Assembly (NCBI GenBank): GCA_002256145.1
Contig: NKIP01000006.1
Coordinates: forward strand, 1-64,000
Direction of reading: 5' to 3'
DNA from: Comamonadaceae bacterium PBBC1
Lineage (GTDB): Bacteria > Pseudomonadota > Gammaproteobacteria > Burkholderiales > Burkholderiaceae_C
DNA length: 64,000 nt
The notes under the pieces: generated by a model
Databases searched by the model: none
Told to the model about the DNA's origin: nothing
What the model saw: the letters and a program-made list of their open reading frames with translations, nothing else
Shown here: in pieces, positions 30,825-35,528 of the stretch
How the letters are laid out: each line of letters starts with the position of its first letter
Numbering within the stretch: the stretch's first letter is position 1
Made by a program: the position numbers and the translations under genes

Positions 30825-32261
30825 ATGGCTGCCTACAACGTCCAAAGTCTATTCATCTTCTTTGGGCTGGTTTCCTTGCTCGGGGGTCTGGCGGCAAGTT
30901 TGTTTTTTTATCGCCTTGACGCCTCGGCCCGCTATTGGACGGTGGCGGCGTTGCTTTGGGGTGTGACCGGCATACCCACTGTTTTTCGCGATGTTTTGCC
31001 TCCGCTGTGGTCTTACAGCATCCCCATCGGTCTCAACAGCGCCAGTTTTGTGTTGATGGGCTTGGGGATCGCACGGCTGTATAACCACTCACCCCAACTT
31101 CGCCGCTTGATGGCCCTGGCCGCAGGCACGGCGGTGTTCATTGTGCTCATGGAGTGGTGCCGCATCCACCTGGGGCCCAAGGCCAGCTTGTTCTTGTCGG
31201 TCATGGCGTTCGGGATTCCCTCTGTGCTGTCGATTTGGCCCGCCCGACAGGTGTACCGCCAAACCAGCAACCCTTTTGCTTGGCACATGCAATGGGTGCT
31301 GGGCGGCTTGGGCTTGCTGCATTTTGTTCGGCTTCAGGCCTGGATAGCCCCGTGGCGCATCGAAACCTTCACCCAGGACCATTGGACACTGGCCTTGTGG
31401 TCACTGATTTTTGTGTTCGGACTTTTACGCTACGTGATGTATGTGGCCATGCGCATTCAGGAACAAGCCCAAGATTTGTCACAAAAGGCCCTGGAAAGTG
31501 CCCGCTTGCAGGCCAACCGCCGCTTGCTTGAAGAGTTGTCACAACACGAACGACAGCGCAGTTTAGGTTTTATTTCGGGTGCCATATGCCACGAATTGAA
31601 CCAACCCTTGACGGCCATTCAAGGGTACGCGGAGCTGGCGCAGCACCGGGTTCAGACCCAAATGCTGAACGACCCCGCCCTGTCCCAGTGTCTTGAAGGC
31701 ATTGTCCATGCCAACCAAAGGGCCAGCGAGATGGTGCGAAGCATTCGCCAATATGCCTCACCGGCCTGCCATGCCACAGAGCGCATCAGTTTGCGCGACA
31801 CGCTGAACAGTGCCTGCACCTTGCTTCACATCGAAGCTCAAGAAAATGGCGTCACGCTTCAAAAGCCCTTCAACATGCCACAGGCTTGGATTCAGGCCGA
31901 TGCGCTGCAGCTGACACTGGTCTGGCAAAACCTGATGCGCAACGCCATCACAGCCATGGCGCATTCAACGCAGCGGCAGCTGACCATCACTTGGTTGCCA
32001 GAAGGCTCAAATGGGGTTTTGAGCTTTCAAGACACCGGCCCGGGGTTTCCAGCCGACGCTGAAAAATTTGTCATGATGCCCTTCACCAACGATCGGTCCC
32101 CGGGCTGGGGCGTGGGACTGTCCGTGGCCCGCCACATCATTGCAGGTGCAGGCGGAAAACTCTGGTTTCACAACCTTCCAGGCGGCGGTGCCTGTGTCAG
32201 GGTGCAGCTGCCCATTGACGAGTTATCCTTGCCCATGGATGCGCGGCACCCGCAAGCTTGA
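30825..32261 (+). CDS. Membrane sensor histidine kinase
   Basis: N-terminal multi-TM region; H box ICHELNQPLTAIQGYAEL; N box LVWQNLMRNAITAM; G box DTGPGFP. Confidence 0.9.
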   Translation: MAAYNVQSLFIFFGLVSLLGGLAASLFFYRLDASARYWTVAALLWGVTGIPTVFRDVLPPLWSYSIPIGLNSASFVLMGLGIARLYNHSPQLRRLMALAAGTAVFIVLMEWCRIHLGPKASLFLSVMAFGIPSVLSIWPARQVYRQTSNPFAWHMQWVLGGLGLLHFVRLQAWIAPWRIETFTQDHWTLALWSLIFVFGLLRYVMYVAMRIQEQAQDLSQKALESARLQANRRLLEELSQHERQRSLGFISGAICHELNQPLTAIQGYAELAQHRVQTQMLNDPALSQCLEGIVHANQRASEMVRSIRQYASPACHATERISLRDTLNSACTLLHIEAQENGVTLQKPFNMPQAWIQADALQLTLVWQNLMRNAITAMAHSTQRQLTITWLPEGSNGVLSFQDTGPGFPADAEKFVMMPFTNDRSPGWGVGLSVARHIIAGAGGKLWFHNLPGGGACVRVQLPIDELSLPMDARHPQA

Positions 32262-32346: not shown

Positions 32347-33411
32347 TCACTTTGAATTGGCCAAAGCGGGCAATGAAGACAGCGACGCTTCAAATTGGGC
32401 ACGCAAGCTGGCATCGGACACCTCCAGATACCGCATGGCCGATTTGACATCTTTCCAACCCACATAGGCCATGAGCGCCTTGAGGTCCCAGCCGCTGTCT
32501 CGGGCCCAGCCGGCAAAGCCCCGGCGCATGGAATGGCTGCTGTACGCCTCTGAGCCTTCGATGCCCACCTCACAAAACAGACTGCGCAGCAGAGGAATCA
32601 AGCTGTCGGCGTTCAAACCCTGCGCGGCAACACGGCCCCAACGGTCAATTTTTCGGTACACCGGCCCTTGGCTCAAGTTGGCCAAAGTGACCCAAGCCTG
32701 GTAGGCGCTCACCGGGCACAGTTGCGACAAGGCCGGGCAACTGTGATGTCGCCCAATGCTTTGACGGTCGGTTTTGCTGCTGCCCAAGTAACACACTAGC
32801 CCCTCGCCTGCCGTCATTTGGACATTTTCCACGCGCAAGTTGACCAGCTCATCCGAGCGAAATCCACGCCAAAAACCCAGCAACAAGAGACTTCGGTTGC
32901 GGGTATGCCGCAGCAACGCCGCCATGTCTTGCATGGTCTGGGCCTGTTCAATGCGCTCACCCAGCCACTGGTCAATGCGCTGAACCACCTCGATCTCGAG
33001 TGGGCGGGCTCTTTTTTCGGCCACCCCATGCAGCGAGCGTATGCCTTTGAACACCTGGCGCACTTTGCTGGCCTTGGTCGGATCAGCAAAGCCATGGTCC
33101 ATATGCCAGCGCGACAGGGCAGCCAATCGCTGGCGAAGGGTGTTGATCGCCAAGCTGCCCGCGTGATCGGCCAGGTATCGGCAGATCTCGTCGCTGGTGG
33201 TGGGCAACAAGCCACGCCACTCGACTTCGAAATGGCGCACTGCCGCCGCGTAGCTTCTGCGGGTGTTTTCTCGTTCGGCTGCGGCCAGGTACTGCTCGAC
33301 ACGGTCCACGTTCTCTCCTGTTGTGATGGGGGTTGCGCGGTGACCATGACTTGGCATGTTATTTGGGCTTTTGCTGCGGCTGACCCGTTTGGGCCATGGC
33401 GTGATGCGCAT
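32347..33411 (-). CDS. Tyrosine recombinase / site-specific integrase (TnpS-like by context)
   Basis: Catalytic residues readable: GFWRGFRSDELVNL (R), SSHSMRRGFAGWA (HxxR), AMRYLEV (Y); start may be 33357. Confidence 0.88.
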   Translation of the reverse strand: MRITPWPKRVSRSKSPNNMPSHGHRATPITTGENVDRVEQYLAAAERENTRRSYAAAVRHFEVEWRGLLPTTSDEICRYLADHAGSLAINTLRQRLAALSRWHMDHGFADPTKASKVRQVFKGIRSLHGVAEKRARPLEIEVVQRIDQWLGERIEQAQTMQDMAALLRHTRNRSLLLLGFWRGFRSDELVNLRVENVQMTAGEGLVCYLGSSKTDRQSIGRHHSCPALSQLCPVSAYQAWVTLANLSQGPVYRKIDRWGRVAAQGLNADSLIPLLRSLFCEVGIEGSEAYSSHSMRRGFAGWARDSGWDLKALMAYVGWKDVKSAMRYLEVSDASLRAQFEASLSSLPALANSK

Positions 33412-33474
33412 CCATGCCCAAAACCGCTATTTTTTCCATTTTTCCAAGATCTAAAAGGCCGTGTTGACGATCAT

Positions 33475-33503
33475 ACATGGGGTAATCCGCCATTACCCCA
33501 TGT
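33475..33503. promoter_or_regulatory. Perfect inverted repeat between recombinase and KfrA-like gene; candidate recombination core or operator
   Basis: ACATGGGGTAAT-CCGCC-ATTACCCCATGT (12-5-12). Confidence 0.6.
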
Positions 33504-33543
33504 TAAATATTTTTTATTTTAAAAATTTTACAGGTAAATTTAG

Positions 33544-33564
33544 TATGTAATATCATATTACGTA
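33544..33564. promoter_or_regulatory. Palindrome upstream of KfrA-like gene; candidate operator/accessory site
   Basis: TATGTAATAT-C-ATATTACGTA (one mismatch), 22 bp before the ATG at 33587. Confidence 0.55.
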
Positions 33565-33586
33565 GTACGTTACATTAAGGCACACC

Positions 33587-34696
33587 ATGGCAAGATCAGG
33601 CATTTACAAGGCAGAAGTGCTGCGGGCACGCGACGCGCTCGTGGCTGCGGGGCGGCATCCATCGATCGATGCGGTGCGCGAAGAACTGGGGCACACCGGC
33701 TCAAAAAGCACGATTCACCGCTTTTTGAAGGAAATTGAAGAGGAAGAAGGCCCCCAAACAGGTTCGCAAGCGAACCTGAGCGAAGCCCTGCAAGACTTGG
33801 TGGGGCGCTTGGCCGCACGCTTGAACGAAGAAGCCCAAGAACAAATCAGCCGGGCGCAAACCGAACACACCGAGCAAATGGGTCGCGTTCTGCAAGAACT
33901 CAGCGCACTGAAAACGCAAAACGCCCACACACACCAGGAATTGCAGCAAACGAACAAGGCCTTGGCCTCTGAAAAAACGACGCACGCCAAAACCCATGAC
34001 GCGCTGAACGCCAGAAACCTCGAATGCACCAAATTGACCCAGCAGGTGCTGGACCTTCAGGCCCAAATCGAGGGCCAGGGCAAACACATTCAATCGCTGG
34101 AAGAAAAACACCAGCACGCCCGCATGGCCCTTGACCACTTCAGGGAGTCAAGTCAAGCCCAAAGAACACAAGATCAGCGCAAGCATGAACAACAAGTTCA
34201 ATACCTTCAAACCGAATTAAGAACACTCAACGAAGCGTTGTCGGGCAAACAGCAAGAAGTCCTGCACCTGAGCCAGGAAAAAACACGCTTGACCACTGAT
34301 TTGTCGCGTAGCCAAAACGATTGGCTGCTGTGCAAAGAAGAGATCGAGGCCTTGCTGCCTTTGAAGGCATTGCTGGAGCAATCACGCCGAGACCAAAAAG
34401 CGCTGGGCCAACGGGTGGCCGAGTTGGAACTTTTGCACCAGCAATCTGAGGCCTCGGGTCAGGCCTTGCGCGAACGGATGGAGACCTTGAACGCTCAAAA
34501 ACAGCAGTCAGACTTGAGCCAGGCCATGCTCCAAGCCGCCTTGACGGTCCAAGAGCAAATGGTGTCAAGTTTGCTGGCCAAAATGACGGCCCTGCCCGAG
34601 TCGCATCCAGAACTGGCTCAAGAGCAGACTCAAGAAAAACCCCAAGATCAGGCACCAGAACACCCCTTGTCACAGTCACCCGCCTCCAAGCCATAA
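33587..34696 (+). CDS. KfrA_N-domain DNA-binding protein with long coiled coil (TnpT-like by context)
   Basis: MARSGIYKAEVLRARDALVAAGRHPSIDAVREELGHTGSKSTIHRFLKEIEEEEG followed by about 300 aa of Q/E/K-rich heptad sequence. Confidence 0.82.
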   Translation: MARSGIYKAEVLRARDALVAAGRHPSIDAVREELGHTGSKSTIHRFLKEIEEEEGPQTGSQANLSEALQDLVGRLAARLNEEAQEQISRAQTEHTEQMGRVLQELSALKTQNAHTHQELQQTNKALASEKTTHAKTHDALNARNLECTKLTQQVLDLQAQIEGQGKHIQSLEEKHQHARMALDHFRESSQAQRTQDQRKHEQQVQYLQTELRTLNEALSGKQQEVLHLSQEKTRLTTDLSRSQNDWLLCKEEIEALLPLKALLEQSRRDQKALGQRVAELELLHQQSEASGQALRERMETLNAQKQQSDLSQAMLQAALTVQEQMVSSLLAKMTALPESHPELAQEQTQEKPQDQAPEHPLSQSPASKP

Positions 34697-34918: not shown

Positions 34919-35054
34919 CAGGTCACAGACCCCATGGCAGTAGCGCCTGCGTACGCAGATGAACACTTGTTGACATTCTTTTGAACAACTTTGCTTGCAC
35001 GCGCAAGTGGGCTGCTAGCATGGACGTTGACCGATATTTCAGGCCTTGGTGCAC

Positions 35055-35528
35055 ATGCAAAAAATGACCCCTCCAAAACCGACCCGTAAGGCCGTGGCCT
35101 GCTTGCTGGCCAGCATGATGCTGATCGGATGCGCCAGCACCCAAAGCGTCAGCCAAAGCGCCCCCGTGCTCTACCCCAATGTGGCTTACAAAAGCATGGG
35201 CGAACAAGCCGCCAAACAGCATTTGAACCAGTGTCTTGCCCAAGCCCAAGCCAGTGGCTTGAGCCCTGCCGAAAACCGAAATGCGGCGGCATCCGGTGCC
35301 ACAAAAGGCGCAGCCGTGGCGGGGGTGACCGGGGCGGTCACCGGCTTGGTCTTGGGACGTGGCAATTTGAACGATGCCCTGAAATACGGGGCTCAAAGTG
35401 CCGTCATTGGGGCAGCCGCCGGCGGCACCCGGGGAGCCATGAGCGAAGAAAAAGCCAACCCGATATTTCGGCAATTCGTGCAGCGCTGTGCTGCAGAACG
35501 GGGCTTGGAGGTGATTGGCTGGCAATGA
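35055..35528 (+). CDS. Glycine-zipper-containing lipoprotein
   Basis: MQKMTPPKPTRKAVACLLASMMLIGCAS lipobox; GATKGAAVAGVTGAVTGLVLG...GAAAGGTRGA. Confidence 0.75.
   Translation: MQKMTPPKPTRKAVACLLASMMLIGCASTQSVSQSAPVLYPNVAYKSMGEQAAKQHLNQCLAQAQASGLSPAENRNAAASGATKGAAVAGVTGAVTGLVLGRGNLNDALKYGAQSAVIGAAAGGTRGAMSEEKANPIFRQFVQRCAAERGLEVIGWQ

Follow-up and report, generated by a model that had tools for sequence, protein, structure and literature searches.

A stand-alone TnpS/TnpT/rst-like recombination module on a Limnohabitans-group chromosome

Introduction

A divergent gene pair in Comamonadaceae bacterium PBBC1, taken together with the short region between its genes, is by sequence almost certainly a TnpS/TnpT/rst module, and the best explanation of its origin is a TnXax1/Tn4651-type Tn3-family transposon from which the transposase and both terminal repeats have disappeared, along with the C-terminal extension of TnpS. 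It is probable that function has been retained, and we lean towards reading the locus as a stand-alone, functionally maintained module that would resolve two rst copies in one molecule. The parts are already known; what is new is the transposon-free chromosomal setting. The window referred to throughout is the whole 64,000-nucleotide stretch of DNA that was analysed (contig NKIP01000006.1, positions 1 to 64,000 of the forward strand, assembly GCA_002256145.1).

Published accounts place a core site for TnpS and an accessory site for TnpT between the divergent genes (PMC7157771, PMC4619425), and the details of the Tn4651 rst used below are drawn from these secondary papers. In three P. putida strains that lack the Tn4652 transposase, a review lists tnpT and tnpS as parts of the transposon (PMC3056050).

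Results and Discussion

The original prediction described a complete tyrosine recombinase gene and a KfrA_N gene in divergent orientation, and both open reading frames are intact (Table 1). The recombinase matches Phage_integrase in Pfam over the full domain (8e-14), and its partner matches KfrA_N (8e-27). The called ATG of the recombinase is at 33411; a GTG at 33309, behind AGGAGAG, is the start kept in relatives, and because they start there we favour it as the likely true start, which gives a protein of 320 aa. In an alignment with the relatives of the recombinase, the catalytic residues R151, K179, H259, R262, W285 and Y294 (numbered from GTG 33309) are invariant, and the best structural match of the predicted model is Cre.

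Table 1. Features of the module and its flanks, in window coordinates
Feature	Position	Strand	Basis
Flanking sensor histidine kinase	30825..32261	+	Pfam HisKA/HATPase_c; left side of empty site
tnpS-like Cre-type tyrosine recombinase	32347..33411	-	Pfam Phage_integrase, catalytic residues, predicted Cre fold, TnpS clade
Presumed rst core	33475..33503		12-bp inverted arms, 100% complementary, 5-bp centre: ACATGGGGTAAT-CCGCC-ATTACCCCATGT
Candidate tnpT promoter	33527..33556	+	Overlaps accessory dyad; 10/12 consensus matches; consensus scan alone, weak
Presumed rst accessory dyad TAGTATGTAATATCATATTACGTAGTA	33541..33567		13-bp arms, 85% complementary (repeat search)
tnpT-like KfrA_N protein	33587..34696	+	Pfam KfrA_N; alignment with TnpT of Tn4651 and TnXax1; structure model
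Flanking glycine-zipper lipoprotein-like gene	35046..35528	+	Weak Gly-zipper match, synteny; right side of empty site

A tree of 63 rows joins TnpS of the window with those of Limnohabitans sp. WS1 and two further genomes, G071 and G069, in one clade (support 100). This clade sits beside seven transposon-borne TnpS (support 92, not starred), and the larger TnpS clade around both groups mixes transposon-borne and stand-alone genes (support 99, starred). The closest plasmid matches in tblastn are likewise TnpS proteins, several of which adjoin Tn3 transposases; identities are 70% for the Variovorax RA8 plasmid, 58% for Azospira and 54% for TnXax1 of pXAC64. Outside the Limnohabitans group, the nearest relatives are 69–71% identical and adjoin Tn3 transposases. 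The grouping within the TnpS clade, the lack of a tRNA in the window and the housekeeping neighbours speak against a phage or ICE integrase, the class that had been named as the alternative. A XerC/XerD-type assignment was also rejected, with NCBIfam scores of 28 bits for XerC (cut-off 335) and 25 bits for XerD (cut-off 330).

The C-terminal ends of these proteins vary in length. Between 130 and 144 residues follow the catalytic Tyr in transposon-linked TnpS of the window's branch, as against 17–30 in stand-alone TnpS. In the TnXax1-like branch, tnpA-linked TnpS carry 105–115 extra C-terminal residues that stand-alone TnpS do not have (L057, L059, L060, L264-L271, L282). It is possible that the extra residues are a link to the transposase.

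The partner protein aligns with TnpT of Tn4651 and of TnXax1, both of which also carry KfrA_N. Its structure model has a small N-terminal helical DNA-binding head followed by one long coiled-coil helix (residues 61-333). A KfrA-like gene recurs as the divergent neighbour of tnpS in relatives, so that the proposed survey of synteny finds the same pairing in other genomes. A second, shorter KfrA_N protein is encoded elsewhere in the window's genome (contig C11, L122:6188-6790), near integrase-like and UmuC-like genes, perhaps on a plasmid or island.

The two dyads that had been noted between the genes were recovered; the length given for this region, roughly 180–230 bp, becomes 175 bp from the called ATG or about 277 bp from GTG 33309. 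The core pattern, with three mismatches or fewer, occurs once in the window versus none in 100 shuffles, and it is a single copy in the whole 4.59-Mb genome. The core is kept in WS1, G071, G069, TnXax1 and Pseudomonas. The TnXax1 core ACGCGGGATAATCTAGAATTATCCCGCCT and the window core read in the tnpS direction, ACATGGGGTAATGGCGGATTACCCCATGT, are both 29 bp long with a 12-5-12 layout and similar inner sequence. The GTATGTAA repeats of the accessory dyad recur beside tnpT in WS1, TnXax1 and Tn4651, and both dyads are conserved while the remaining intergenic sequence diverges. By analogy with the published systems, the core is presumed to be the site of TnpS binding and strand exchange, and the accessory dyad the TnpT site. 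The consensus scan that suggested the tnpT promoter gave one match versus 0.7 expected. The place in the TnpS clade, the TnpT homologue and the match of the dyads to the TnXax1 rst bear out the view of the locus as a relative of the Tn4651-type TnpS/TnpT module.

The absence of a Tn3 transposase, which the original prediction gave for the window, extends to the whole genome: no PF01526 match was found in this draft of 60 contigs, in which a collapsed copy is possible. The same search recovers the Tn3 transposase in E. coli as a positive control, and it was negative in 15 further genomes in which related TnpS loci occur. The sister transposons share a terminal repeat, GAGGGTCGGCAGGGATTCATGTAAAA..., with 0–5 mismatches at the transposon ends; around the module, and likewise in WS1 and G071, the best repeats of this type have 16–18 mismatches in 38 positions, the same as in shuffles. 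Inverted pairs found across the module were rejected as terminal repeats, being unlike transposon ends. With neither a linked tnpA nor terminal inverted repeats (GGGG or GAGG start), the locus falls outside the Tn4651 subgroup of Tn3 transposons and is, as had been proposed, stand-alone.

The genes on either side adjoin, with the module absent, in three genomes (G072, G078 and G083), and on this comparison of gene order the module was most likely inserted between the kinase and glycine-zipper genes. The complete set was found in four Limnohabitans-group genomes (the window's, WS1, G071 and G069); it is absent from most genomes of the genus and is therefore dispensable there. Among 401 genomes of the window's family, 17 carry a close TnpS, about half of them adjoining tnpA. 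Elsewhere in the window, positions 2684-2808 hold about five copies of a 25-bp imperfect tandem repeat (CTGGCTCCTATATGCCGAAAACG...).

WS1, G071 and G069 have the module together with additional rearrangements. Between tnpT and the glycine-zipper gene, WS1 has a 40-kb block containing trmB, rluA and other genes, a circular permutation of the G072 order; G071 has the tnpS-tnpT-trmB-rluA block in inverted orientation. No second rst copies or half-sites were found at the rearrangement ends. WS1 is also a mosaic, window-like on the kinase-tnpS side and G069-like on the tnpT-trmB side. Recombination at rst was rejected as its source, as the best breakpoint (33582-33658) lies at or just inside the tnpT start and off the core; homologous recombination suffices to explain the mosaic, and we therefore do not read it as proof of activity. 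As separate observations, the 20–40 kb blocks that separate tnpT from the glycine-zipper gene in WS1 (L145-L148) and G071 (L108/L109) show the ancestral order circularly permuted, and repeat arrays occur near several rearrangement breakpoints (WS1, G071 and also L149-L150 of the window's genome, contig C5).

Stand-alone divergent tnpT-tnpS loci also occur in Roseateles, Vogesella, other Comamonadaceae, Pseudomonas and one Burkholderia contaminans megaplasmid. A close TnpS (E up to 1e-60) is present in 223 of 300 Pseudomonas species genomes; the best 150 of these 223 matches show 73% identity or more to the query, and most genomes contribute a single match. Sixty loci drawn from these best-scoring 150, a sample in which the about 70 more divergent copies are not represented, all have tnpT and tnpS in divergent orientation next to ahpC-ahpF and, in most cases, with gor as the opposite neighbour; all 60 TnpS have the catalytic set intact. 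No tnpA was found within 10 kb of any of the 60. The core motif is present in 57 of the 60 intergenic regions, and the 1.18 Mb of flanking sequence hold no other copy. The 21 single-contig Pseudomonas genomes with dnaA at their start all have the locus at 0.440–0.557 of the chromosome, opposite oriC, and in 19 of these tnpS is co-directional with the replication fork, taking the midpoint as the terminus. Since the 21 genomes share ancestry, this position counts as one evolutionary fact and not 21, and it may reflect common descent of the ahpCF region. A dif search reaching 10 kb from the Pseudomonas locus found none. Full-text searches, covering mainly open-access papers, brought up no earlier description of the ahpCF locus or of its conservation. 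Apart from these loci, two Pseudomonas TnpS relatives have no tnpT and overlap an upstream co-directional gene (L021:4769-6936, L025:4935-7008), which in L021 encodes 414 aa with no Pfam match; such relatives perhaps use a different partner.

Across the four Limnohabitans-group genomes, dN/dS is 0.08–0.14 for TnpS, 0.17–0.35 for the neighbouring kinase and 0.22–0.34 for TnpT. TnpS is under purifying selection. These values bear on the reading of the locus as a transposon relic. In that case only the half for resolution would remain of a Tn3-family element, now without tnpA and ends and drifting to decay with no role. The sister TnpS genes are all transposon-borne, the C-terminal extension has been lost, presence in the genus is patchy, and TnpT has diverged fast (62% identity between the window and WS1, versus 97% for TnpS), all as a relic would have it. 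However, both proteins are intact in the compared genomes, dN/dS of TnpS is lower than that of the kinase, the dyads are conserved amid diverging intergenic sequence, and the locus is retained genus-wide in Pseudomonas, and we consider a relic unlikely. Of the two histories that the original prediction left side by side, domestication fits better than decay because TnpS has a dN/dS of ∼0.1 and intact catalytic residues, and because the arrangement is kept in four related genomes and, separately, in Pseudomonas.

A maintained locus might instead act as a local regulator, in which TnpT and TnpS would retain only DNA binding, for autoregulation or for control of the neighbours (the kinase here; ahpCF and gor in Pseudomonas). 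The predicted tnpT promoter does overlap the accessory dyad, and the neighbours in Pseudomonas are fixed. But every checked copy keeps all catalytic residues, which binding alone would not need, and the neighbours differ between lineages, which leaves this reading quite improbable.

Slightly more improbable still is gene capture, in which rst would be an attachment site where TnpS and TnpT integrate rst circles, with cargo building up between tnpS and tnpT: it has in its favour the 1.6–7.9 kb of other genes between tnpT and tnpS in several relatives with and without tnpA, the variable region described at this place in TnXocp1 (PMC4619425), the tnpT and tnpS gene numbers 8–19 apart in the three P. 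putida strains without Tn4652 tnpA (PMC3056050) and the large block moved beside the module in WS1 and G071, but rst is without cargo in the window, WS1, G071, G069 and the 60 Pseudomonas loci, the WS1 block adjoins the tnpT end and not rst, with no second rst left, and the WS1 mosaic breakpoint is off the core. Loci with cargo between tnpT and tnpS comprise transposons (L009, L010, L264, L266, L346) and loci without tnpA (L274, L277, L278, L281).

We thus return to the stand-alone resolution module. By homology with Tn4651 and TnXax1, from which we infer DNA binding and resolution, TnpT would bind the accessory dyad and probably repress its own promoter, while TnpS would bind the core dyad. 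In a DNA molecule with two directly repeated rst copies, the cores would be synapsed by a TnpS tetramer, and Cre-like strand exchange, biased by TnpT, would excise one rst copy. As there is one rst per genome, the substrates would be rst-duplicated molecules, namely dimeric chromosomes or cointegrates formed with incoming elements that bear an rst; the single site and the map position in Pseudomonas both point to this substrate class, which we put forward tentatively. The window's genome also encodes a XerC/D-like recombinase, so that a further system for resolving dimers would be redundant and the role may be auxiliary. No dif was found in the window or in contig C4, the GC skew of which is ambiguous in this draft assembly. 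More speculative, and on balance doubtful, is the proposal that Pseudomonas and the Limnohabitans clade separately recruited TnpS/TnpT/rst to resolve chromosome dimers or termini alongside XerCD/dif, the single site being opposite the origin in Pseudomonas.

Comparison with known systems places the module closest to TnXax1 (pXAC64) and its sister transposons (Variovorax RA8 plasmid, G218, G253). With these it shares a TnpS 54–71% identical, a 12-5-12 core with a GATAAT-N5-ATTATC centre and the GTATGTAA accessory repeats, and with TnXax1 the divergent KfrA_N partner; unlike them, it has no tnpA, no terminal repeats and none of the 105–115 C-terminal TnpS residues, and it is chromosomal and common to a small clade. 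Tn4651 (pWW0) and the Tn4652 relatives in P. putida have the divergent pair, a short-form TnpS and a KfrA_N TnpT, but Tn4651 has tnpA at its far end, its TnpS is about 51% identical and its core is only loosely alike. The Pseudomonas ahpCF locus is likewise stand-alone and divergent, with the same core architecture and no tnpA, whereas its TnpS forms a clade separate from that of the window in the tree, it is near core in its genus and its neighbours are others.

Outside the Tn3 family, XerS/difSL and XerL/dif each pair one tyrosine recombinase with a single chromosomal site near the terminus (PMC2731167, PMC9765430). The module likewise has one tyrosine recombinase and a single site, XerS is linked to its site as tnpS is to rst, and the position of the Pseudomonas locus opposite oriC resembles that of both systems. 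Unlike XerS and XerL, however, the window recombinase is not Xer-type by sequence, and it has a TnpT-like partner and an accessory site. Cre/loxP of phage P1 offers the best structural match, a palindromic core and, by analogy, a use in resolution; identity to Cre is only about 20%, and by homology with Tn4651 the module would need its partner and accessory site.

Conclusions

The resolvases of the Tn3 family are regarded as belonging to transposons. A locus without tnpA that is kept at a constant place in many Pseudomonas species (all 60 sampled, with a close TnpS in at least half of 300 species) and that arose a second time in Limnohabitans points to more than one domestication of a resolution system for use by the cell. 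If this reading is true, a bacterial genus that is among the best studied would have a transposon-derived, domesticated resolvase close to its core gene set, and automatic annotation, for example as a site-specific integrase or a Tn4652 resolution protein, would conceal a conserved chromosomal locus. Whether a second, Cre-like and TnpT-assisted system acts on the chromosome of these bacteria is a question that can now be tested.
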